Below are positions 8,192 through 53,253 of a stretch of DNA of 53,570 nt, piece after piece. A program made the position numbers and the translations under genes. Numbering within the stretch: the stretch's first letter is position 1; each line of letters begins with the position of its first letter. This DNA comes from Nocardioidaceae bacterium (GTDB lineage Bacteria; Actinomycetota; Actinomycetes; Propionibacteriales; Nocardioidaceae). The notes beneath the pieces were generated by a model that saw nothing but the letters and a program-made list of their open reading frames with translations, did not search any database and was not told where the DNA came from. The DNA lies in NCBI GenBank assembly GCA_030447585.1, contig JAUJOO010000011.1, forward strand, positions 45,960-99,529. Reading direction: 5' to 3'.

Positions 8192-9816
8192 GTGCCCTCC
8201 GACTCTGCGGTCAAGGACCCGCTGAAGACCTACCGGCGCAAGCGGGACTTCTCGCGGACTTCGGAACCGTCGGGCGACACCTCTGCCGCCGAGGTCGGTG
8301 GAGGCGGTTCCCGGCGGTTCGTGGTGCAGCGTCACCGTGCGCGCCGGCTGCACTATGACTTCCGCCTGGAGGTCGACGGCGTGCTGGTCAGCTGGGCAGT
8401 GCCGAAGGGGCCGACTCTGGATCCGGACGTCCGGCGGGCGGCCTTCCACGTCGAGGACCACCCACTGGAGTACTTCGACTTCGAGGGCGTCATTCCGGCG
8501 GGCGAGTACGGCGGCGGTGACGTGATCGTCTGGGACGCGGGTAGCTGGGAGCCGCACCAGGCCGGCAAGTCTGCCGATCCGGGCCGCGCGATCGCCGCCG
8601 GCGAGTTGCATCTCGACATGTGGGGAGAAAAGCTCAGCGGCCGGTTCGTGCTCGTCCGGACGAGCACGCCGGCGTCCGGCAAGGACGAGTGGCTGCTGCT
8701 GCACAAGCACGATGAGTACGCCGTCAAGGGCTGGAACGCAGAGGATCACCCGCAGTCGGTGCTGAGTGGGCGGACGAACGAGGAGGTGAAGACCGACCCA
8801 GACCGGATGTGGCGCTCAGACCTTCCCGCGGCCCGTGCCTCGATCGCGCTCAAGGCACCTGTGGTCGAGACGGTCGGCGCCGAGGAGCTGGCTGAGCTCG
8901 ACACCCTGGCAGCTGGGGGACCTGGTGGGTGTACGGCCGCGAGCTGAAGGTCACCAACCTCGACAAGGTCCTGTTCCCGGCGCGCCCCGGCGAGGGCCCG
9001 GTCACCAAGCGAGACCTCGTACGGTACGCGGCCCAGATCGCACCCACGCTGCTGCCGTATCTCAGCCGCCGAGCTCTCAACTTGCACCGCTACCCCAACG
9101 GTGCACAGGCGAAGGGGTTCTGGCACAAGGAAATCCCCCGGCACGCACCGGACTGGCTCCCGCGGTGGCACAACCCCGAGGCAGCGGCTGACGAGACGCA
9201 GAACTATCTGGTCGTCGACGAACCCGCCGCCTTGGTGTGGGCTGCCAACTTCGGCGCCCTGGAGTGGCATGCCTGGACGTCGCGGGTCGACCAGCCTCGA
9301 CGCCCGACCTATGCGCTCGTCGACCTCGACCCTGGGGACACGACCAGCTGGGACGACCTGCTGGTCCTGGCCCGCCTCCACCGCACCGCGTTCGAACACA
9401 TGGGCGTCGTCGCCCGCCCCAAGGTCACCGGCCGACGTGGCATCCAGATCTGGGTGCCCATCGCTCCCGGCCCCGACGTCCGCGAGACCCGCGCCTGGGT
9501 CGAACGGCTGTCCAAGAGCGTCGGAGCCGTCGTCCCCGAGCTGGTCAGCTGGAAATGGAACGTGAACGAGCGTGCAGGTCTGGCCCGGCTCGACTACACC
9601 CAGAACGCGATCAACAAGACCCTCGTCGCCCCCTACAGCCCGCGACCTGCCCCCGGCGCTCCGGTCTCGGCTCCGATCGAGTGGGACGAGCTGGACGACC
9701 CGGACCTGTCGCCCGACGGTTTCACCATCCGCACCATCGTTCAGCGGATCGCCGAGAAAGGCGACCTGTTCGCAGAGGTGCTGCAGCACGCCCAACGATT
9801 GCCGGCTCTGAAGTAG
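8192..9816 (+). CDS. LigD-like 3'-phosphoesterase-polymerase fusion without ligase domain (one frameshift)
   Basis: An N-terminal LigD phosphoesterase domain (FVVQRHRARRLHYDFRLEVD, then SWAVPKGP, HPLEYFDFEGVIP, GEYGGGDVIVWD) is followed by a LigD-type primase-polymerase domain (LKVTNLDKVLFPA, metal motif VDLDPGD, TGRRGIQIW, RLDYTQNAINKTL). The frame breaks at about 8920 in a run of five G. A sixth G gives AAGGTWWVYGREL and joins the domains into one ~541-residue protein. There is no ATP-dependent ligase domain and no ku gene nearby. LigD polymerases fill or extend ends during nonhomologous end joining. GTG start at 8192. Confidence 0.9.
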
Positions 9817-21577: not shown

Positions 21578-22558
21578 TCAGGCTTCGTGCGCTCGGCGGT
21601 AGTCCTCGTGGATCTCGACGGGGATGCGGCCCCGATCGGACACCGGATAGCCCTGGTCGAGCGCCCACCGGCGTACCTCGGGAACGGTCGGATCCCGCGA
21701 CGGCAGCGGACCTGCTGCCGGAAGGCCGTCAGCGGCTGCCTCCGACATCCGCTCCTCCGCGAGTGCGACCGCGGCCGCGCCCAGGAACCGGAACGTCCAC
21801 TCCTCGGCAAGCGACCTCGTCTCGCAGAACACGATGGGGACGTTCGGCCACCGCACCTGTGCCTCGGCGAGCCCGTCGGCCACGACTGACGGCTTGACGA
21901 ACTCGAGCTTGAACACTTGCGAGTAACGGTCCTCGACGACGACGGCGCCCCTCGGCAGCGAGGCGAGCTCCCCGAGTAGGTACTTGAGCTTGCCGCTGGT
22001 CAACGTCGACACCAGGTCGGCCAGGGTCTTGCGCTCCACGGAGGCGATCAGGCCGGTTTCGTCGACGAGGCCGTAGTCTCCCGCGGTCAGCGCCGCTCGC
22101 CTGGTGGTGGCCTGCTGGTGCGAGAACGAGTAGGCGTAGCGCTCGTGGCTGTCGACGACGATCTCCAGATCGACCAGCCCGGACGCGCGGGCACCGGGGA
22201 TGGAGACGTTGGGCCGCGCCTGCTTGGCGGTCCGGGCGGTCTGCCAGAAGATCGCCTCGCGCCCTCCTCGGATGCGGGTGATGACGAACTGCGAGCGGTT
22301 CTCCCTACCCCGGTCGAGCACGAGGTCGATGGCCGCGCCCCGCCGTACGCAGGATCGAACCGGCACACGGTCGACGACGTCGGCGTCGGCCGGCCAGTCG
22401 GTGGCTCGATGGCAGTAGACCTTGCTGGTGCGCGGCCACACTTCTCGTGCCTTGAGTACGACGCCCTGGGCGCCCAGCGGGATGCGAACGAGATACGGCA
22501 GCGTCGACCCCTCTTCGGGATTGCGCGCCACCACGAAGTCGTCGTACACACCACACAT
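21578..22558 (-). CDS. ERCC4-domain nuclease fused to an Lsr2-like C-terminal DNA-binding domain
   Basis: This protein has 326 residues. The N-terminal ~125 residues are a family-specific domain (FVVARNPEEGSTLPYLVRI, VYCHRATDWP). The middle is an XPF/ERCC4 nuclease fold: VDSHERYAYSF, TAGDYGL, and the catalytic core SVERKTLADLVSTLTSGKL with the ERKxxxD motif, then GAVVVEDRYSQVF. The last ~40 residues (PTVPEVRRWALDQGYPVSDR then GRIPVEIHEDYRRAH) match the C-terminal DNA-binding domain of Lsr2, including its RGR AT-hook-like triplet. The combination suggests a structure-specific nuclease guided to AT-rich or foreign DNA; that role is inferred. Confidence 0.88.
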   Translation of the reverse strand: MCGVYDDFVVARNPEEGSTLPYLVRIPLGAQGVVLKAREVWPRTSKVYCHRATDWPADADVVDRVPVRSCVRRGAAIDLVLDRGRENRSQFVITRIRGGREAIFWQTARTAKQARPNVSIPGARASGLVDLEIVVDSHERYAYSFSHQQATTRRAALTAGDYGLVDETGLIASVERKTLADLVSTLTSGKLKYLLGELASLPRGAVVVEDRYSQVFKLEFVKPSVVADGLAEAQVRWPNVPIVFCETRSLAEEWTFRFLGAAAVALAEERMSEAAADGLPAAGPLPSRDPTVPEVRRWALDQGYPVSDRGRIPVEIHEDYRRAHEA

Positions 22559-24572: not shown

Positions 24573-24985
24573 TCATGGACCGACGACCAACCCGAGCGGC
24601 GCCAACCGTCGTCTCAGGGTTTCGTCGGCAGTGAACAACTCGTCGCCCAGGCGCTCGGCCAATGCCACGTAGAGCATGTCGTAGATCGGGTGCTCGTCGT
24701 AGCGGCGGGAGAGGTCCCAGGCACGGTCTCGATCTGCGGGTTTGTCGACGAGGCTGATGGGAGCTGCCGCAGCCGTTGATAGGCGTCGTCGGCCGCGTCT
24801 CCGTCCCAACGATGACGTCGGCATCCCGTGAGCAGCGCGTTCGCCACCTCCTCGACAAGGAGTCGCGGCGCGTAGAGCGGGGCCCCGACCTTGGCCAGGT
24901 GGATGAGTAGCTGTCCCGCGGGTTCCTCCGGGTCGACATCGGGCGCGACCCAGTCGACCACGATGCTGGCGTCAATGACCGGCAT
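24573..24985 (-). CDS. PIN-domain toxin (VapC-like), one frameshift
   Basis: The ATG at 24985 begins MPVIDASIVVDWVAPD, the usual PIN start with the first catalytic Asp. LLVEEVANALLTGCRRH (second acidic residue) follows. After ~24770 the frame changes, and YDEHPIYDMLYVALAERLGD then LFTADETLRRRL supplies the third and fourth acidic positions. Adding one C in a CCC run restores QLPISLVDKP, giving a ~137-residue RNase toxin. It overlaps the upstream antitoxin gene by 14 nt. Such toxins cleave RNA, often tRNA. Confidence 0.85.
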
Positions 24986-25358
24986 CGCGCTCGTGGCCGC
25001 CGCCGGAGCCAGTCTCGCGCTCGTGGCCGCCGCCGGACCCAGCCACGCGGGCGTTCTCGCCTCCAGACCGAGCCTCGCGGTCTGCCATGACCAGGTCGCG
25101 GGCCGTCTTTGCAACACCACTCGGTTGCGACCGCCGCGCCTCTGCCGCCCACTCGCGCAGCGTCGGCTCCCGGCCGCCGAGGGCGGGTTTGCCACTCAAG
25201 CGAAGTACGTCGTCGCGCGCGACCAGCAGACGGCGGCCTTGTCGCTGCGCCTCGAGGCGCCCACTCCACACCCACCGACGAACCGTCTCCGGCGTACGTG
25301 CTGCCAAGCCGGCCGCTTCTCGTACATCGATCATCACTACACTATCGCGGCTCCGCAT
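24972..25358 (-). CDS. helix-turn-helix antitoxin/regulator partner of PIN toxin
   Basis: This 128-residue protein has an N-terminal excisionase/MerR-like HTH (VREAAGLAARTPETVRRWVW, RQGRRLLVARDDVLRL) and a long hydrophilic tail. I chose the ATG at 25358 because a TAAAAT box ends 6 nt before it, implying a leaderless transcript. An ATG at 25334 is the alternative. The tail ends in two copies of a Gly-Ser-Gly-Gly-Gly-His-Glu-Arg unit encoded by a 30-bp tandem repeat. The gene overlaps the PIN gene, as expected for an antitoxin that binds DNA with its N-terminus and the toxin with its C-terminus. Confidence 0.82.
   Translation of the reverse strand: MRSRDSVVMIDVREAAGLAARTPETVRRWVWSGRLEAQRQGRRLLVARDDVLRLSGKPALGGREPTLREWAAEARRSQPSGVAKTARDLVMADREARSGGENARVAGSGGGHERETGSGGGHERDAGH
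24985..25044 (-). repeat. 30-bp tandem duplication in the antitoxin 3' end
   Basis: Two adjacent 30-bp units begin TCGCGCTCGTGGCCGCCGCC on the plus strand and differ only at their ends (GGAGCCAGTC versus GGACCCAGCC). They encode the repeated Gly-rich His-Glu-Arg tail of the HTH antitoxin. Confidence 0.9.
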
Positions 25359-38280: not shown

Positions 38281-39255
38281 CTACTCGTCAACTGGCGGCG
38301 GCGGGCCGACTTCGCCGGCTCGCTGATCGCGTTCGGCCCACTCCAGCAGCGGCTCGAGCGAGAAGACCGCGTCGTCGATGCCCTCGTGGAGGTCGCCGAG
38401 CTTGGCGAACCGATCAGGCACCGTCGATATGGTGCAGTCGTCGGGCTCGACGTCGTCGACCTCGTCCCAGCTGATCGGCGTCGAGACGGTCGCGTTCGGT
38501 GTGCCGCGGACGGAGTACGCGCGCAGGCAATCGTGTGGTCGCGGGCGTTCTGGTTGTAGTCGACGAAGAGCTGGTCGGGAGCGCGGTCCTGCGCCACCAG
38601 GTGGTGGTCACGTCCCCGGCCGACCGGCGTTCGACCTCGCGCGCGAAGGCCAGGGCTGCCCGGCGTACGTCGGCGAACCCCAGCGCGGCTCGATCCGGAC
38701 GTAGACGTGCAGGCCGTGACCGCCGGAGGTCTTCGGCCATCCGACGGCGCCGAGCTCATCGAGGATCTCGTGGCTGACGTGGGCGGCGCGCCGTACCGTG
38801 TCGAACGCGCACTGCTCCATTGGGTCGAGGTCGATGCGCCACTCGTCGGGGCGCTCTGTGTCGGCGCGGCGGGAGTTCCAGGGGTGGAACTCGACGGTGG
38901 ACATCTGCACCGCCCAGATGACGTGGGCTAGCTCGGTGACGCACAGCTCGTTGGCGTGGCGGCCGTATCGGGGGAACTCGACGCGGACGGTCTCCATCCA
39001 CGGCGGTGCGCCGTGCGGCAGGCGCTTCTGGTGAACCTTTTCGCCGGTGACGCCGTCGGGGAACCGGTGCAGCATGCAGGGCCGTTCGCGCAGCGCCCGC
39101 ACGATGCCGTCGCCGACGCTGATGTAATAGTTGGCGAGGTCGAGCTTGGTCGCGCCGGTTGCGGGGAAGTACACCCGGTCGGGGTTGGAGATCCGCACGG
39201 TGCGGTGGCCGACCTCGAGCTCCACTGCGGGTGTCTTGCTCTTAGCCGGTGTCAT
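38281..39255 (-). CDS. LigD-like primase-polymerase, stand-alone (several frameshifts)
   Basis: The ATG at 39255 begins a ~325-residue LigD polymerase-domain protein: VRISNPDRVYFPATGATKLD, CMLHRFPDGVTGEKVHQKR, catalytic WRIDLDPMEQCAFDTVR, WPKTSGGHGLHVYVRI, DQLFVDYNQNARDHTIACA and FSLEPLLEWAERD. Frames change near 38670, 38600 and 38515, and the true stop is the TAG at 38281. It has no phosphoesterase or ligase domain, unlike the protein at 8.2 kb. A role in end joining or primer synthesis is inferred from family members. Confidence 0.88.
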
Positions 39256-39265
39256 ATCCAACAAC

Positions 39266-39605
39266 TTAGAGCGTTTCCCGCCGGCCTCCACCAGCAGTGG
39301 GCTTACCCCAGTCGAGGTCGAATGCCGCGCGGATGGCCTCGGACAACTCCGGTTCCTGGCTATCGAGCAGAAAGCCGATCTGGCGGCCCACTGCCTCCTT
39401 CAGCACGGTGACAATGTTGTCGCAGCTGATGACGCTCGCCTGCGCCAGACCGTTAGGCGTCCCGACTGGCACCTCGGTTGACAGGCCCTTGATGGTGCTG
39501 GTTACCGGCGCGACCGTCACCCGCGTCAGGTGAGGCCGGACAGGCGCGGGTGAGGATGAGAACGGGCCGGGCTTTGTCGAGGTGCGCGACATGGATGGGT
39601 CGCAT
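39266..39605 (-). CDS. MazF/PemK-like endoribonuclease toxin, one frameshift
   Basis: The ATG at 39605 gives MRPIHVAHLDKARPVLILTR. After a shift near 39535 the product continues VRPHLTRVTVAPVTSTIKGL, STEVPVGTPNGLAQASVISC and DNIVTVLKEAVGRQIGFLL. KARPVLI, TRVTVAP.T and the NGL..S..SCDN segment are standard MazF core. The start codon overlaps the antitoxin stop (TGATG). It is an RNase in a type II toxin-antitoxin pair. Confidence 0.9.
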
Positions 39606-42949: not shown

Positions 42950-43246
42950 GTTCTCCGGCTTCATTGATCGCCTCGTGACTCAGAGATTTCCGAGAGGAGT
43001 CGCGAGCAAGGCTGCCACCTGCGGTCTCGTCGGGAAAGGTGTGCTCGACGCCCGGAACGGTGGCGAAGGCACGATCAGCCGAGACGATCGTTGCCGCTCC
43101 GATGTCTCGTGCCACCGCCGCGAGAACCGCGCCGAAGCATCCGATGTCGGGATGTTGGCGCCAGATCTCAAGGCTCGCCCGGTGCTCGCTTCCCACCGCA
43201 TAGACCAGCACCGTCGGCCCAGCTTGGCGAACCGGAGCCGGCTCAT
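42950..43246 (-). pseudogene. PIN-domain remnant lacking its middle section
   Basis: TVLVYAVGSEH, the N-terminal strand of PIN toxins, runs directly into EIWRQHPDIGCFGAVLAAVA then RDIGAATIVSADRAFATVPG, which is the C-terminal third. About 55 residues that normally lie between, including the second acidic residue, are absent. An ATG at 43246 overlaps the recD stop (ATGA) but needs one added C to enter this frame. No stop follows until inside the convergent PIN gene. Probably inactive. Confidence 0.65.
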
Positions 43247-45112
43247 GGCTGGCTGCTCGCCCGATTGAGGCCGCTGGCTCGGTTGATGCGCCGCTCGACC
43301 GCCGCCCGGACAGCCGCGTCGGTGCCGATGATCCGCACGTGCTGCTTGGCGCGCGTCACCGCCGTGTAGAGCAACTCCCGCGTCAGTAACGGCGACCCTG
43401 CCGGCGGCAGCACGATGCTGACCTTGTCGAACTGGCTGCCTTGGCTGCGATGGATCGACATCGCGTGCACGGTCTGTACGTCGCCCAGTCGGCTCGGCGC
43501 GAGCAGGTCGAGCACCCCGTCGCGCCAGAAGGCGGCTCGCGGTTGACCGTCGGAGCTCACGATCACGCCGGTGTCGCCGTTGAACAACCGCAGCTGGTAG
43601 TCGTTCGACCTGACGAGCAGCGGCCGGCCGACGTACCAGAACCCGTCGCTGGCGTAGCCGTCCACGGCGTCGCTGAGCCAGTCCTGCACCTGCTTGCTCC
43701 AGTGCGCCACTCCGTACAGTCCCTCCCGGTGGGCGCACAGCACGCGGTGCTTCCCGAGCGCCGCTAGGGCATTCTCCGCGTGGCCGTTGCGGGCAGCGGC
43801 GATGAGCGTCCGGCCGGCCTGGCGTACGTCGGCCCGCAGCGTCGCGAGGTCACTCTCCGCTGATGCGATGTCGAGGTCTATGTACTCGATGTCACCGTGA
43901 CCTCCGGCCAGCAACCCGAGCACCTCGTCGCTGTGGCCGTGCCGGATGGCCTCGGCGAGCTGCTGGATCTGCCCGCCGAAGCGGTGCACCTTCGTCAGGC
44001 TGACCATCCCGACGGTTCGCGCCGCGTGCTGCTCCTCAACCGACAGGTCTTCGAGGTCACGGCCCACGTGCGCTGTGTCCACCGCGAGCGGTACGACGCC
44101 CGGCGGCGCCGCGCGCTGCACCAGGTCGCCGAGCACCGCGCCGACCTCGATCGACGACAGCTGGTTGGGGTCGCCGACGAGGACCAGCCGGCACGTCGGC
44201 CGCAGCGCCTCGATGAGCCGTGACATCAGCGTGAGCGACACCATCGAGGCCTCGTCGACGACGACCACGTCGTAGGGCAACCGGTTGTCGCGGTTGTACC
44301 AGAACCGGGTGCGCTCGCCGTGCCGGTTGCCGAGCAGGCGGTGCAGTGTCGATGCGCTGAGCCTTCCGATGCGCGCTTGGTCTGGCAGCGCGAAGTCGGC
44401 CACCTCGCTTGCTGCCGCCGTCGTCATCCGCGCCGCGGCCTTGCCGTCCGTGCGGCGAGGGCGATCCGGAGCGCGCCATCTGCGAGGTTCTGCAGGACGG
44501 CGAGCAGCCGCGCCACCGTCGTCGTCTTGCCCGTGCCCGGCCCGCCCGCGACGATGCTGAACCTGCGGTGGGCGGCGACGTACGCCGCGAGCCGCTGGCG
44601 GTCCGCTTGCTCTGACCGGAAGAGCCGTCGCAGCGCGGCGTCCAGCCGCTCCGGGTCGGGCGTCAGCGGTTGTGCGAGCACCGCCGCGTCGACGTGCGCC
44701 GCGACGACCCGCTCCTGCCGCCAGTAGCGGTCGAGGTAGAGCAGTCCGTCGACCCACCGCAGCGGTCGGTCGGGAGGTCCGTGCGTGCCCACCGCCACCA
44801 GCTGTGCTCTACAGCGGCGACCCAGTCGTCAGCGTCCGGCCACGGAAGGGCATCCGTCGACCGTCAGTCCGTCGGTGGCCACCCGTTGCGCAACGTCGCC
44901 CAGCTCCAACACCACCGAGCCGTGGCGTACGGCGCGCACGGCCAGCGCCGCCGCCAGCAGCACCCGCTCGTCGTTCTCCCCGCACAACCGCTGCAACCGC
45001 CGGGCGACGTGCACGTCGGCACTGGTCAGCACGCCGGCTCGGTTGAACTCCGGAGCCAACTGCCCCTCAGCCCGTAGCGCACGCTCCACCGACTCCCGAC
45101 CACGGCCGTCAC
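43243..45112 (-). CDS. recD: exodeoxyribonuclease V alpha subunit (several frameshifts)
   Basis: GTG at 45112 overlaps the recB stop (GTGA). One added G gives VTAVVGESVERALRAEGQ; then FNRAGVLTSADVHVARRLQR, LAAALAVRAVRHGSVVLE, Walker A IVAGGPGTGKTTTVARLLAV, RIGRLSASTLHRLLGNR, Walker B VVVVDEASMVSLTLMSRLIE, LVGDPNQLSSIEVGAVLGDL and C-terminal VHAMSIHRSQGSQFDKVSIV then ELLYTAVTRAKQHVRIIG. Breaks lie near 45090, 44850-44810 and 44460. RecD is the 5'-3' helicase of RecBCD, which processes double-strand ends. Confidence 0.92.
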
Positions 45113-48100
45113 GACGACGCCCTCGGTGCAGCAGGTCCGACAGGTCGGTGACCAAGGCCGCCGGCGGTGACCACGAGAAGACGCCGTACGGCACGCCGTC
45201 GGCCACCGGAGTCTCCGGCCCGCACATGCCGCGCAGGAAGAGGTAGAGCACCCCACCGAGATGCTGCTCGGGGTCGTAGCCGGGCTGCCGCCAGCGCAGG
45301 TAGCGGTGCAGCGCCACGCAGTACAGCAGCGCCTGCAGAGGGTAGTGCGTGCCGCATCTCGCGCGCCATCGCCTCGGGCCGATAGTCGTACGCCGTGAGC
45401 TGATCGCCCCTGCCGAGCCAGTTCGTCTTGTAGTCGACGACGAGGTAGCGCGGCGTCCCGGTGCCGGCGTCCCGCACCCGCAGAACCGCGTCGATGCTGC
45501 CGGCCAGATAGCCGCGCAGGCTGCGACCGGCGATCAGCGGCACGTCGAGGTCGTCGGCGTACCCCTGGAGGAGGTCGCCGGGCGGGAGGTGGCGGCGTAC
45601 CAGAGCGGCGATCTGGCGCACCTTGCCTCACCAGTCGGGACGTCGCCACCGACCAGTGGCAGCTCGAAGTCGAGCTCGTCAAGCCGATCGGACTTCGCGA
45701 TGTCGACCAGGCGCCGGTTGGCAGCCAGCGGCCCGAGCGGCGTATGCAGCGACGGCAGCAACGCCTGCGCCAGCTCGGCCGGCGGTGTGGCGCCGAACCG
45801 CTCAGAGTCCTCCGCGGCGCCGCCTCCAGCGCCGCGGACAGGTCGGGAGTCGTGAAGTCGGTGCGCTCGGAGCACCGTGTGCACGAGCGTTCCGAACGCC
45901 GCCCCCGACGGCAAGTCCGCCATCGGCGACACCGGGCGGCCCGTGACCGGCGGGCGTCGCCTCCACCTCGGGCCGGTCGGGGGGCTCGTCGGTGATGCCG
46001 GGCGTCTCCGGCTCGCTCACCGCCACCGTCGCACCGGACGCCTCGTGCAGCCCCGCCGTGATCCCGGTGTACGACGTCCGCCGCCACGCCGTGTCGAGCC
46101 GGCGGTCGAAGTCGCGCACCGACATGTCGACCGCCGACCCGTCCGGAGCGGTCAACGGCGCCGTCGCCACCGGACCCGTGACCTCGACGCTCACCAGCCC
46201 ACCCGATGTGGCGGCCAGCGAAGCGAAGCGCTTGCGGGTGCCGTTCTCGTCGGGCAGCGGGACCGAGTCGGGCACCGCTCCCCCGTCGGACCGGTCACCG
46301 AAGAGCAGCCGGTGCAGCGGGGCGCCCGGCGTGTTGTTGGTAGGCGCCCAATGCGCGACGACCTGGAGACCGCGCGCGGGTGAGCGCGACGTACGCCAGC
46401 CGCAGCGACTCCCCCGCCTCCTCCTTGCCGTGGCGTGCCTCGGCGCTCGGCGTACCACGGGCCGGTCGACCCGCCCACGTCGAGCACGCGCTCGTCGTCC
46501 TCGTCGTGCGCGACCGCATCTGCTCCGGATTGCCGCCCACCCAGCGGTCCCAGAGGAACGGCGCGTAGACGACCGGGAACTCCAGCCCTTGGCCCGCCAG
46601 ATCGTCATGACCTGCACCGCCTTGGCGTCGGATTCGAGCCGCCGGCTGCGTTCCTCGTCGATGTCGCCGGCCGCTTCGGCGATCCGGTGCTGGAGCCACT
46701 GCACCAGCGACGACGCCGCCGCCCTCGGTGCGGGCCCGGTGCAGCGCCTGCCCGATGTGTCGCAGGTCGGTGAGGTCGCGCTCACCGTCGTCGCGGCCAG
46801 CAGCTCGCTCCGCCAGCCCGGTGGCGGTCGCCGCCTCCATCAGCGCGGCCACGCCCGTGTCGGTGAGCGTCTCCGCCCAGCGACGCAGCTGGGCGCCGAG
46901 CTCCTCCTGGCGTGGCCCGGTGGCCGTGGCCAAGCTGACGGCGGTCCAGCCGATGAAGCTGGTGAGCGCGGCGTTGCGGGCGAGCCCGGTGCGCTGCGGC
47001 TGCTCCAGCGCGGTGAGCAGGTCGAGCCACTCCGCGCCGCGTCGGAGGCGAAGACCGAGCTGGTCGCCGAGCACGACGGGTACGTCGACCGCGGCCAGCG
47101 CGTCGCGTACGGCGGCGCCGGTGTCGTTGCGCTGCACCAGCACGGCCTGCGTCGGCCGCCTTCCAGCGGGCGGCGTACGCCGTCGCGCTCGACGAGCTCG
47201 GCGCCCGACGCCAGCAGCCGGACGATGTCGGCGGCGACGTCTCGCGCGACGAACGGGCGAACGTTGGCCACCGTGAGCTTGGCCGAGGTCGACTCGTCGA
47301 ACTCTTCGCGGGCACTCGGCGCACGCGCACCGGCGCGCTGACGGGAGCACTGAGCAGGGAGGGCTCGCGGTGCGCGGCGTTGACGTCGTACAGCCGGATG
47401 CGGGGGTCGCCGAGCGCGGCGTCGCCGAGCAGGTGCCGCAACCCGCACCAGCGGCTGGTCGCTGCGCCAGTTGGTGCCGAGCGTCGCCTCGCCCAACGCG
47501 GCCCGCTTGGCCTGCAGGTAGGTGACGATGTCGGCGCCGCGGAAGGCGTAGATCGCTCGCTTCGGGTCACCGACGAGGATCAGGGTGCGGTGGCCGTGGA
47601 AAGCACGCTCCAGGATGTCCCACTGCAGCGGATCGGTGTCTTGGAACTCATCGACCAGCACGAGGATCTGGTAGCGGGCGCGGATGCGCTGACAGGCCTC
47701 CTCGCCGGTGTCCAGCATGAGCGCCGCGCGCAGGTAGGTCAGCAGGTCGTTGTAGTCCATCACCCGCATGGCTCGCTTCCGCTTCGCCACCTCGTCGCGC
47801 GCGCGCTTGGCGAACTCGTAGCGATGCGGGGGCCCCGGCTCGGCGTCGTGCGGCTCGAAAGCCGGCGGGCCGGATCGCCGACGCGCGCCGGCAGCCAACC
47901 CAGCTGCCGCGCCGAACGGCATGGCGTCGGGCGGCAGCGGGCTGTCGTCGCGGCCGTAGTCGGCGACGTAGAGGTCGGTGGCGACGTCAGTGACCAGGTC
48001 GCCGGTGGCTTCGGCGAACGTGACGTCGGAGTCGAGGTCGGCGGCGATGCCCAGCCCGGCCAGCATCTGCGAGCAGAAGCCGTGTGGTGGCGATCGTGGC

Positions 48101-48457
48101 CGGCGTCGAAGTCGGCGACCGCGCTGGCCAGCCGCCGGTGCCGTCGGCGTACCTCGTCGTCGGGCGCGTCGGCCAGTAGGCGCACGACGTCGTCGGTGGA
48201 GCCGCGGGCGGCGGGGTCCGTGAGCGCAGCCGTCACCGCGGTCCGTCGTTCGCGCACTCGCTCGCGGAGCTCGGCCGTGGCAGCCCGGCCGAACGTCACG
48301 AGCATCATCTCGTCCATCCGCGCTGGCCCTCGGCGAGATAGCGCGCAGCCAGGCCGGCGATCGTGTAGGTCTTGCCGGTGCCGGCGCTGGCCTCCAGCAC
48401 CGTCGTCCGTCCGGCAGCGGCTGGTCGGCGCGAAGACGGGAAATCTGCCTCCGTCAT
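45109..48457 (-). CDS. recB: exodeoxyribonuclease V beta subunit (multiple frameshifts)
   Basis: ATG at 48457 overlaps the recC stop (ATGA). Walker A TVLEASAGTGKTYTIAGLAA, then MLVTFGRAATAELRERVR, Walker B ILVLVDEFQDTDPLQWDILE, LILVGDPKRAIYAFRGADIV, ATLGTNWRSDQPLV, AVQVMTIWRAKG and LEFPVVYAPFLWDRW, RLAYVALTRA, and the C-terminal nuclease motif RYLVVDYKTNWLG, ending HRYLRWRQPGYDPEQHLGGV. The frame changes at least eight times. Repaired length is ~1115 residues, normal for the family. It is the 3'-5' helicase and nuclease of RecBCD. Confidence 0.93.
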
Positions 48458-51400
48458 TCGATGACCTCCGCCTCGAGCAGCGGTGTCCAGATCGTGCGGG
48501 CCAGTTGCCCAGCGGGTGCGGCTCGTCGGCGTAGTCGCGTCGGGGTACGCCGGCTCCGCCAGCAGGTCGCCCAGCGTCGTCAGCCGTACTCGCCGGTGGT
48601 CGCCGTCGCCGAACTCACCGTAGGCGTTCTTTCCTGGCCCTTGTTCTCCCACCCCGGGCCGGCGAGGAAGCCCGCCGCGTTGCGGGAGCACGGGTGCCAG
48701 CGGCGCTTGTCGGCATAGGCGCATTGCCTTCTTCTGGCGGCACTGGAAGCGGCCGGGTCAGGCCGAGCCGGTGGAGGGCGACCAGTGCGTCGAGATGTTG
48801 CCGGCGACGTCGGCGGACGGGACCCGTCAAGAACGACCCGATCACCGGATTCTTCCTGTCCCCCGGCCGACTGCGACGGCGCTCCACGTGCGTGCCGGGG
48901 TCGTGTGCGCAGAGGGCGAGCAACTGCAGCCAGGCTCGGATGCGGTGCTTGGCTGACAGCCGCGAGTACTGATGCGCACGACGCGGTCGCCGTACACGCG
49001 CGGCACTGACCCGTCGAGGCGGGTGCCCGACGGCAGAAAGATCGAAACGTCCGCGGTGTTGGGCTCGCCCGCGCGCAGGCCGGTGCTCTTGTCGAGCACG
49101 GCGGCGACGTTGCCGGCGATCGGCTGGCGGACTGAGCCGCCGAGCGTGCCCGGTGGGAGCTCGCCGCGCAGCCGCTCCACCTGCTGGGCGTCGTCGACGG
49201 CCAGGTCGGCGAGGCCGGCTCGCAGCAGCCGGTCACCGACGGCCCACTCCTCCAGCTTGTTGGGGCAGACGGGGGATGGCGCGTCGGACGGCTCGTCCTC
49301 CTCGTCGGCGGTGCGCAGCTCGAAGCCGCTCGCGGCAAAAAGGCGCGGACCGGGTGCTCGAAGAACCGGGATCAGCTTCTCGAGCTCGACCGCGTCGGTC
49401 TGCTGAAGCTCGGGGCAGCGGTCCGTCGAGGAAGGGCCGCGGCTCACTTTGGCCAAGCTGTCGGGCGACGCTGCCGGCGTACGACGCCTTGTCGAAGCTG
49501 AACGGAGCGCTCGCCGCCAGCTCATCGACCGTGAAGTTACGTGGGTCGAACGGCTGCAGCGGATGGCGCACCAGCACTCGGTCCCGGGCCCGGCACCGCG
49601 GCACGCTGGCCGTGCGATCGAGTACGTCGAGCAGCTCGCCGAGCGGGACCGCGGGCGGTCGCTCGGCACCGGTGCGTTCGTCGGCGCCGGTGTAGAGGAT
49701 GACGAGGCGCTCCTTGGCCGCCAAGATCGCGTCGAGGAACAGCTCCTCGCCGGTCCTCCGACCGCCGGTCGCGCTCCCACCCGCGGCGAGCGGGCGAGGA
49801 TGTCGTCACCGTCGATGCTGTTGCATATGGAACACGCCGTCGTCGAGGCCGAGCAGGCAGACGACGCGATGCGGCACCGACCGCATCGGCACCATCGTGC
49901 ACACGGTGAGGTGGCCGGTGCGGAAGTTGGCGCGGGTGGGGCGTCCGCGCAGGCGGTCGCGCAGCAGCGCCCCGTACGTCGGACAAGGTGCGCTCCAGCC
50001 GGGCCGGTTGGGCCAAGGCCAGCGCGTCGGCGGAGCCGTTGCGCCGGCGAGGGTCGCCTTCGCCTGTGTCACCTGCCAGGCGTCCGGGTGGCTCACGATC
50101 GATGAAGCGGTCGACGGCTCCGGTGAGCGCTTGCACCATCCTCGGCGGCTGCTCCTGCCGGAGTGCCGCGAGGGTGGCGTCGAGCCGGTCGAGCAGCTCG
50201 GCGAGCCGGCCGGCGAGGTCGATCTCGGTGCTGTCAATGTCGTCGAGCGGGAGGGCGGTGCCGACCAGGCGGAGGTCCTCCTCATCCATCGCGACGCCGG
50301 CGAGCAGGCGGTCGAGCCCGTGGGACCAGGTGTTCTGCCCGACGCCGATGAGGCCGTAGCCGGCACGGGCCGTGTCGAGCTCCCAGCGGACGCCGGCGCG
50401 GCGTACCCAGTCACCGATACGTTCCAGCGCCTCCTCGTCGAAGCGGAATCGGCGTCGCACCGGCTGCATGGCCGCGAAGTCAAGGATCTCCGAAGCGGTG
50501 AGGCGCGAGTCGGCGAGCTCCAACAGCCTGGCGACGACATCGAGCACCGGGTTGGTCTGTCGCGGTGCGCGAACGGTCGGCCAGCCGGAAGGTGAGCCGG
50601 TGTCCGGGTGCATCTGCGCCGCGGCCGTCGGATCGTCGGAGTCGTCGAGGACTTCGAGCCTTCAGGCTGGCGCTGATCAGCGGCGCGTAGGCGTCGATGT
50701 CGGGGCACATGATGATGATGTCGCGCAGCTCGAGCGTGGGGTCGTCGGAGAGCAGGCCCAGCAACACCTCGCGCAGCACCTCGACTTGCCGGTGGCGGCC
50801 GTGGCAGGCGTGGACTTGCACAGTCATGTCGTCGTCTGCCAAGGCGTGCCAGCCGGGCAGCGCCCGGTCGGCACGCAGGTCGTCTTGCAGCGCATCGAGC
50901 AGCGTGCCGCTGGCCGTTGTCGTGATGGGCAGGTGTTCGTCGGCCGCCGGGCTGGTGTGCGCATGAAGTCGAACGTACATCTCCCGCGCGTCCCGCCCGA
51001 GCGACCGCAGCAGCGGGTGAGCTGCCACTTCGGAGCACGGGTCAGTGCGTCGCGTCGGGTCCTACGGTGGTCCGAGTCGAGACGGTGGTCGAGCTCCTCG
51101 GTGGTCGACTGTCGAGGCCATCCGCAAGCCGCCGCCACAAGCCGTCGGACGGAAACGGCAACCACAGGTGTACATCGCGATGCACAGCCAACGCGTCCAG
51201 TACCACCAGTTGAGCGGTTGTGAGCCTGGCCGCCCGAAGATCGACAACCGCTCGGGGAGTCGACCAGGTCCGGCTCCTGACGCAGTCGCTGGCATGCCGG
51301 GGCAGGCCAACCGCTCCGCCGGACTCGCGGTGTCGATGCGCCCCCGCACGCGACGCCAGCCCGCGCGCCGGCGAGGGTCGCCTTCGCCTGGGTGACCTGC

Positions 51401-53253
51401 CAGGCGTCGCGCGGGCTCACGTCGGTGAAGAGGTCGACGGCTTCGGTGAGCGCTTGCACCCATCCTTCGAGCGGCTGCTCCTGTCGGAGCGCGGCGAGAG
51501 TGGCGTCGAGCCGGTCGAGCAGCTCGGCCAGTCGTCCGACGAGGTCGATCTCGCTGCTGTCGACGTCATCCAGCGGGAGCGCGCTGCCGACCAGGCGGAG
51601 GTCCTCCTCGTCCATCGTCACCCCGGTGAGCAGACGGTCCAGCCCGTGCGCCCAGGTGTTCTGCCCGACGCCGGCGAGGCCGTAGCCGGCCCGCGCCTGT
51701 GCGTCGAGCCCCCAGCGGACGCCAGCGCGGCGTACCCAGTCACCGATGCGTTCGAGTGCCTCCTCGTCGAACCGGAATCGGCGCCGCACCGGCTGCATCG
51801 CCGCCAGGTCGAGAACTTCTGAAGCGGTCAGTCGGGAGTCAGCGAGCTCCAGCAACCTGGCGACGACTTCCAGGACCGGGTTGGTCTGCCGCAACGAGCG
51901 GTCGGCCAGCCGGAAGGTGAGCCGGTGCCCTGGGTGGACCTGCGACGCTGCCGCCGGGTCATCTGCGTCGTCGAGCACCTCGATGCCCAGGCTGGCGCTG
52001 ATCAGCGGGGCGTAGGCGTCGATGTCGGGGCACATGACGATGATGTCGCGCAGCTCGAGCGTCGAGTCGTCGGAGAGCAGCCCGAGCAGCACCTCGCGGA
52101 GCACCTCGACCTGCCGGTGGCGGCCGTGGCAGGCGTGCACTTGCACCGTCGTGTCGCCGTCCGCCATGACGTGTGAGCCGCCGGGTGGCCGGTCGGCACG
52201 CAGGTCGTCTTGCAGTGCGTCGAGCAGCGAGCCGCTGCCGGCGGTCGGTGCGGGCAGATACTCGTCCGTCGCCGGAGTGATGTGTGCGCGAAGCCGAACG
52301 CTCATTTCCCGCGCATCCCGCCCGAGCGACCGCAGCAGCGGGTGAGCCGCCACTTCGGCGGTCGGGTCAGTGCGTCGCGTCGGTACGGCGCCTACGGTGG
52401 TCGAGACTGTCGAGACCACCTCGCCGGTGGTCGAGCCGGCTCCCTCGGTGGTCGCGCCTGTCGAGGCCATCTCGCCCAGCCGCCGCCACAGCCCGTCAGA
52501 CGGAAAAGGGAGCCACAGGTGTACGTCGCGATGCACAGCCAACGCGTCGAGCACCACCAGTTGCGCGGTGGTCAGCCTTGTCGGCCCGAAGATCGACAGC
52601 CGCTCGGGAAGATCCGCGAGGTCCGGCTTTTCCCGCAGTCGTCTGCATGCGGGGTGGAGCCGCTCCGCCGGGCTGTCCGTCCCGATGTGCTGCCTCAGTC
52701 GTCGCCACAGCTCAGGTTGCCAGGCCTGGTCGGCGTCGACCCGGCCGCCGTACCCGTCGGTGTCCTGGCCGGCTCGCCAGTCCGTGATCATGGTCGGGCG
52801 CTCGGCGGCGTACGCCGTGAAGAGGCCGGTGAGCTTCTGCGCAACCGCCATGCGCCGGCCACGGTTGACGCCGCCCTCGACGAGCCCGAGGTGCCGGCCG
52901 AGGGTGCGGCACCAGTCTTCGCCGGCGCAGTCGTCGATGACCTCGAGCAGCGCCCAGGGCAACCGTTCCTCCGCCCACGGATCGTCGTCTGCGCGGACTC
53001 CAGTGGCCGCGACCAGCACCTCACGGACGAGTCGGCTGGGAGGACGGAAGTCGACATTTGCGCAGACCCCGTCCGCCTCGCCGCTTGCTGCTCCCAGCGA
53101 CGCCGACAACGATTGCGCGATCCAGCGCTCCACGCCCTTCGACGGCACCGACACGATGTCGCGCACGAAGGGGTCGGCAGGTAGGTCGCTGAGCGCGTCG
53201 GCGAGCCCTGCCACCAAGCCATCCGCTCGCTCGGCCCGGTGAACATTCAGCAT
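48454..53253 (-). CDS. recC: exodeoxyribonuclease V gamma subunit with internal tandem duplication and frameshifts
   Basis: ATG at 53253. The N-terminal part is intact: LADALSDLPADPFVRDIVSV, KGVERWIAQSLSASLGA, CANVDFRPPSRLVREVL, LSIFGPTRLTTAQLVVLDAL. Mid-protein motifs (CHGRHRQVEVLREVLLGLL, MQPVRRRFRFDEEALERIGD) appear twice because of a ~1.3 kb duplication. The C-terminal hallmarks CLLGLDDGVF and VRHPLQPFDPRNF are present. The span is ~4.8 kb; without one repeat it would be ~3.45 kb (~1150 residues), the normal size. RecC holds the complex together and scans for Chi. As written it cannot be translated whole. Confidence 0.92.
50041..51345 (-). repeat. recC tandem repeat, downstream copy (degraded)
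   Basis: This copy matches 51365-52690 at an offset of about 1324-1349 bp. It covers the segment from SPAERL through AWQVTQAKATLAG. Its reading frame is broken several times (for example LNWWYWTRWLCIAMYTC where the other copy has LTTAQLVVLDALAVHRD), and it has many substitutions. Confidence 0.88.
51365..52690 (-). repeat. recC tandem repeat, upstream copy (in frame)
   Basis: This is the in-frame copy of the duplicated recC segment, continuous with the N-terminal coding part. It contains a Thr/Gly-rich insert (STGATTEGAGSTTGEVVSTV) encoded by GGTGGTCGAG-type repeats. It is about 24 bp longer than the downstream copy because of that insert. Confidence 0.88.
52396..52470. repeat. GGTGGTCGAG-type palindromic repeat inside recC
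   Basis: GGTGGTCGAGACTGTCGAGACCACC (25 bp, arms GGTGGTC/GACCACC; shown here as one element) is followed by GGTGGTCGAGCC and GGTGGTCGCGCCTGTCGAGG variants. A degenerate version lies at 51067-51120 in the other copy. It is translated in frame as a low-complexity linker. Confidence 0.75.

Follow-up and report, generated by a model that had tools for sequence, protein, structure and literature searches.

A family of actinobacterial proteins that join a barrel domain, an XPF/ERCC4-type nuclease core and an Lsr2-type DNA-binding tail

Results

A three-domain nuclease gene on the minus strand

The window, i.e. the whole 53,570-nucleotide stretch of Nocardioidaceae DNA that was analysed, contains an open reading frame at 21578-22558, exactly where a preliminary description of the sequence had put it. 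It lies on the minus strand, begins with ATG at 22558, ends with a stop codon at 21578-21580 and encodes a protein of 326 amino acids. The gene and its parts are listed here with the evidence for each.

21578..22558 (-): three-domain nuclease gene, 326 aa plus stop (full-length homologues)
22223..22546 (-): N-terminal beta-barrel domain, residues 5-112, with the fold of LigD 3'-phosphoesterase and without its metal-binding residues (fold matches only; no invariant His)
21755..22174 (-): ERCC4/XPF-type nuclease domain, residues 129-268 (Pfam, Foldseek and VIA)
22073..22081 (-): GDY at residues 160-162, the opening half of GDXnERKX3D (all 61 tailed homologues and 7/7 of the others)
22016..22036 (-): ERKTLAD, residues 175-181, catalytic ERKX3D motif (61/61 tailed homologues)
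21590..21679 (-): Lsr2-type DNA-binding domain, residues 294-323 (Pfam PF23359, E 7.2e-12)
21626..21634 (-): RGR, residues 309-311, AT-hook-like minor-groove motif (conservation; role from PMC4466236)

Pfam places ERCC4 (PF02732) at residues 135-257 (E 1.8e-13, 51 bits, curated cut-off 24) and Lsr2_DNA-bd (PF23359) at residues 294-323 (44.9 bits, curated cut-off 26.9), and PHROGs likewise detects Lsr2-like and ERCC4-type families within the single 326-aa protein. The fusion is not a chance motif, because both Pfam matches exceed their curated cut-offs and PHROGs agrees, nor is it an assembly artefact, because dozens of independent genomes encode full-length homologues (50-79% identity). The preliminary description was therefore right to see an ERCC4 nuclease and an Lsr2-type tail in one protein, and the C-terminus does give a significant Lsr2-family match. 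The family it had named for the tail, PF11774, now denotes the dimerisation half of Lsr2, which is absent from the nuclease (no match at E up to 1); the tail belongs to PF23359, the DNA-binding half. A third, strongly conserved domain at the N-terminus (residues 5-112) had gone unmentioned.

The core has the fold and signature of XPF

When the full-length protein was modelled with AlphaFold2 (mean pLDDT 86.7), residues 127-270 superposed on archaeal XPF/Hef structures with VIA Z scores of 16.8 to 2bgw (rmsd 2.1 over 127 residues) and 16.1 to 1j24, and Foldseek matches the core to 1j22 (E 5.9e-8). The signature of XPF is GDXnERKX3D (PMC6320978), and G160, D161, E175, R176, K177 and D181 are present in all 61 tailed homologues, so the ERKxxxD residues picked out earlier are retained throughout. 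E175, R176 and K177 also occur in six of seven other-tailed or tail-less homologues, the seventh having a gap at this position. Taken together, sequence and modelled fold make the identification as a nuclease close to certain.

The family thus shares a common nuclease fold and the complete signature with archaeal XPF/Hef and with eukaryotic XPF-MUS81 (ERCC4 domain PF02732), but differs from them in architecture: the SF2 helicase domain is absent from the chain, a LigD-phosphoesterase-like barrel stands at the N-terminus and an Lsr2-type tail at the C-terminus. No helix-hairpin-helix match was obtained by Pfam at E up to 1, and the place of the C-terminal (HhH)2 of XPF, Hef and MUS81 is held by PF23359. 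The protein is not a Hef orthologue by NCBIfam (NF010337, 30.1 bits against a cut-off of 610).

The N-terminal barrel resembles LigD phosphoesterase in fold

Residues 1-128 are as conserved as the nuclease domain, with N13, P14, L20, P27, W41, P42, G74, D78, R83, R88, S89, Q90, V92, G99, F104, W105, Q106 and P116 invariant in 43 sequences. The N-terminal part of the whole-protein model aligned to LigD 3'-phosphoesterases (PE), and so did the domain modelled alone (pLDDT 83), for which the only PDB matches at Z of at least 8 are PE entries (3p43 10.8, 3p4h 10.0, 3n9b 8.9, 3n9d 8.5 and 5dmp 8.2), the next match falling to Z 3.8. PE entries also rank first in Foldseek, with weak E-values (3.7e-3). 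Homology at the level of sequence was rejected: profile-profile comparison by hhalign with 21 LigD_N sequences gave a probability of 0.2%, the outcome was the same after distant members were added, and Pfam reports no match of the domain to PF13298. Common descent with LigD-PE (PF13298/TIGR02777) is nonetheless likely from the modelled structure, as a link at fold level only.

PE chemistry requires His42, His48, Asp50 and His84 (PMC8656161). The N-terminal domain has no invariant or 90%-conserved histidine among the 43 sequences, and by hand alignment the positions of the PE triad are taken by N13, P21 and L23. Since the His/His/Asp metal site of LigD-PE is missing, the domain has a PE-like fold and is not a PE enzyme.

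The Lsr2-type tail was gained once and persists in genomes without Lsr2

The tail is joined to the core by a linker of mostly 28-40 residues. Solved Lsr2 C-terminal domains align to it, weakly when it is taken alone (E 0.05), and R296, W298, G303 and G310 are present in 61 of 61 tailed homologues. The RGR motif noticed in the preliminary description is well kept (R309 in 58/61, G310 in 61/61, R311 in 55/61 with Lys in five more); in Lsr2 this motif is inserted in AT-rich minor grooves, and it lets both Lsr2 and H-NS recognise DNA that is AT-rich and often foreign (PMC4466236). In comparison with the xenogeneic silencer Lsr2 (PF11774 plus PF23359), the nuclease has the same C-terminal domain, with its W, G and RGR, fused to a nuclease.

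Four kinds of C-terminus occur in the family: the Lsr2-type tail, no tail at all (as in L049; such proteins are about 268-290 aa long), a winged-helix-like segment (L161-L165) and a GIY-YIG-like segment (L058 and L060), the last two types being assigned by eye. The winged-helix-tailed proteins, at about 33% identity, are a distant subfamily from other lineages of the phylum; their segment sits in tail position. L058:4529-5878 and L060:747-2120 each encode barrel, ERCC4 core and a GIY-YIG-like C-terminal segment (TLYVGKATRLRTRL) and, judged from their sequences, are possibly double nucleases; Pfam did not confirm the GIY-YIG reading of these tails. The L058 contig, whose title names a Bifidobacterium breve MAG, has probably been misbinned.

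The history of the tail was followed on a tree built from the core only, with the winged-helix-tailed proteins as outgroup. Tail-less proteins are basal and all 66 proteins with an Lsr2 tail group as one clade (SH-aLRT 98); a more careful tree of 66 rows gave the same split between tailed and tail-less proteins (100/97). Because the tailed proteins form a single clade above a tail-less base, the Lsr2 tail was gained once and never lost in the sample (66/66 descendants).

Lsr2 itself, recognised by PF11774, was found in eight of 49 genomes: six that belong to the window's class in the phylum sample, G000 and a Kineosporiaceae MAG. Ten genomes encode the tailed nuclease without Lsr2, of which G337, G387, G397, G407, G436 and G471 lie outside the window's class and the others are G061, G069, G070 and G074; in each of the ten, the tail of the nuclease is the sole PF23359 domain. 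Each of the three Lsr2-bearing genomes tested contains exactly two Lsr2-type DNA-binding domains, one in Lsr2 and one in the nuclease. Retention of the tail in these ten genomes indicates that it is independent of Lsr2 filaments.

These results bear on a reading that makes the protein an ordinary XPF-like repair nuclease, with the tail as a generic affinity tag that merely raises DNA affinity, its AT selectivity being immaterial. The existence of tail-less and winged-helix-tailed relatives, from which it follows that the tail slot accepts other DNA binders, fits such a tag, as does retention of the tail where Lsr2 is lacking. Against this, conservation is high both in the minor-groove RGR and at the Lsr2 core positions, and the tail has not been lost from any of its 66 sampled descendants, so that the tag reading is considered possible, though unlikely.

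The family is a patchy accessory gene of chromosomes and plasmids

Of 396 Actinomycetota genomes sampled evenly across the phylum, 38 carry the family, which is patchily distributed and both chromosomal and plasmid-borne. One scan of species genomes gave 71 loci at which relatives are encoded, the majority at full length. At least 80% of the protein is present in one place on 22 plasmids, whose hosts are Mycobacterium, Rhodococcus, Pseudonocardia, Mycolicibacterium and Streptomyces, and seven of 23 matched plasmid records are typed as mobilizable. RefSeq and plasmid annotations label the proteins either 'ERCC4 domain-containing protein' or, misleadingly, 'histone-like nucleoid-structuring protein Lsr2'. 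The nuclease gene is an accessory gene with a patchy spread that takes in plasmids. Partial or broken copies occur in G057, G086, G011 (L081), L069, L071, L072 and L074, consistent with a dispensable accessory gene. A copy in L026, on a contig titled as an Acidobacteria MAG, is nested among Ornithinimicrobium-type sequences in the tree and is probably contamination.

No relatives were found in 50,697 phage records or in viral contigs, and an origin from phages or other viruses was rejected on this ground. The ERCC4 domain of a halovirus weakly matches the winged-helix subfamily and is the sole viral match of that kind; Foldseek against viral structures returned generic ERCC4 proteins only.

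The plasmid-borne copies raise the alternative of a housekeeping nuclease of mobile elements, resolving recombination or replication intermediates of the plasmids or islands that carry it. Besides the 22 plasmid carriers and the seven mobilizable records, this would suit the transposases, integrases or recombinases that lie near the plasmid copies in several records, and the PIN toxins that are the commonest family of immediate neighbours (6/112). However, the majority of copies reside on large chromosomal contigs with varied neighbours, replication and transfer genes are not constant neighbours, and the lack of relatives among phages and viral contigs also counts against it. A housekeeping function for mobile elements therefore appears unlikely.

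An SNF2-SWIM helicase is the sole recurrent functional neighbour

Immediate neighbours of the gene are diverse and a conserved operon was rejected. Just one functional neighbour recurs, an SNF2 helicase whose N-terminus bears a SWIM zinc finger. Its gene lies within 8 kb of the nuclease in seven loci, in varied orientation (L011, L022, L028, L044, L047, L055 and L080); in L055 the two genes are on the same strand, 40 bp apart. Among the 26 orthologue-bearing genomes of 50 carriers, five have the SNF2-SWIM orthologue within 10 kb of the nuclease where 0.126 would be expected (P(>=5) 2e-7), and the association holds with relatives merged (P(>=3) 3e-4). Co-occurrence in the phylum sample is weak (7/38 carriers against 24/358 others, Fisher p 0.02, phylogeny not removed). 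The helicase is absent near most family members, that of the window included, and the window genome has no orthologue at the cut-off.

Several other candidates for a partner were rejected. The DUF222-HNH gene beside the nuclease, to which the preliminary description had drawn attention as a further putative nuclease, does match DUF222 (E 8e-21) and has an HNH-like motif by eye, but recurs in just four loci and is not a consistent partner. DinB lies within 20 kb in five of 50 genomes, three of them Nocardioides-type, and merging relatives reduces these to three (P ~0.1). A partnership with non-homologous end joining was also rejected: LigD_N does not track the nuclease, which occurs without it in G014, G035, G015 and G017.

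Repair genes are frequent in the window (LigD-PE, LigD-Pol twice, DinB and RecC), a setting common to its close relatives only (L010 and L032). At 8192-9813 (+), separate genes for LigD 3'-phosphoesterase (TIGR02777 over its cut-off) and LigD polymerase overlap head to tail; a second LigD-Pol-like gene lies at 38611-39291 (-). The window holds the only LigD_N of the genome. RecC (TIGR01450 match) lies at the end of the window after RecB- and RecD-like ORFs (43246-53253, -), and in L032 and L010 the nuclease adjoins RecC. A VapBC-like pair at 24617-25358 (-), made up of an excisionase/HTH-type antitoxin ORF (24972-25358) and a PIN-like toxin recognised by eye, adjoins the DUF222-HNH gene.

Evidence on a possible role in defence

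The preliminary description had proposed that the nuclease could cut foreign or AT-rich structured DNA. In the corresponding model, the Lsr2 tail would mark the AT-rich DNA of phages and plasmids in GC-rich hosts and the ERCC4 core would cut it at branched or unwound spots. Such a nuclease would be in keeping with the conserved RGR motif, with the reading of foreign DNA by Lsr2 and H-NS through that motif (PMC4466236), with the GC-rich hosts (about 0.64-0.74 for the window) and with the patchy distribution. Furthermore, the SNF2-SWIM neighbours resemble defence helicases in that PADLOC matches them strongly to 'DpdE' and ZorD models also cross-match.

These resemblances do not extend to specific models: the helicase falls far under the cut-offs of the specific NCBIfam defence models, and its identification as DpdE was rejected as a cross-match (36.6 against a cut-off of 500 for NCBIfam DpdE). 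No defence-system families are prominent among the neighbours except the SNF2 cross-matches and two SoFic, no complete known defence system recurs beside the gene, and the nuclease itself gives PADLOC only a 14.7-bit match over the Lsr2 tail. The gene is itself plasmid-borne, the ERCC4 core is expected to cut structures and not sequences, and tail-less orthologues persist in many genomes. The proposal thus stands in so far as it describes a nuclease with an Lsr2-type DNA reader; the neighbourhoods, in which an SNF2-SWIM helicase is the sole recurrent functional partner, lend no support to the purpose assigned to it, and an anti-foreign-DNA nuclease is regarded as improbable.

Discussion

Here, proteins combining a barrel, an ERCC4 core and an Lsr2-type tail are identified as a real and undescribed family of actinobacterial enzymes. 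Bacteria are not usually credited with their own XPF-type nucleases, and the open-access literature yielded no description of ERCC4 combined with Lsr2, of nuclease fusions to an Lsr2 domain or of bacterial XPF homologues of this kind. The family is conserved across the Actinomycetota and extends to plasmids of non-tuberculous mycobacteria and rhodococci.

The explanation favoured, with modest confidence, is a structure-specific endonuclease of XPF/Hef type for DNA repair or recombination, in which an AT-seeking Lsr2 grip replaces (HhH)2; both the repair role and the AT targeting are what we infer for the nuclease. The ERCC4 core, probably dimeric like archaeal XPF/Hef, would nick branched DNA such as flaps, forks or bubbles, and the N-terminal barrel may serve as a module for recognition of DNA ends or branches, or for contact between dimer subunits. 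On its flexible linker of about 30-40 residues, the Lsr2 tail would insert RGR into AT-rich minor grooves, so taking over the job of the (HhH)2 of XPF and biasing the enzyme to AT-rich DNA, which is often breathing, branch-prone or horizontally acquired. Part of the family probably acts jointly with the SNF2-SWIM translocase encoded nearby.

A bolder version would have the Lsr2 tail direct the XPF-like nuclease to AT-rich, horizontally acquired DNA; there, acting with the SNF2-SWIM translocase, the enzyme would cleave branched intermediates, and foreign DNA would be pruned or rearranged as a result. This is very unlikely; if true, such a nuclease would be a counterpart of xenogeneic silencing, working even in bacteria without Lsr2.

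Nature has in effect varied what occupies the tail slot of one nuclease core (nothing, a winged helix, a GIY-YIG-like segment or Lsr2), and so supplies an experiment on the means by which a structure-specific nuclease is directed to its DNA. The Lsr2-tailed version in genomes without Lsr2 makes it possible to test directly if AT-rich (xenogeneic) DNA is selected for cutting, as opposed to silencing only. The analysis also flags a misleading annotation, since some members of the family bear the name Lsr2 in RefSeq.
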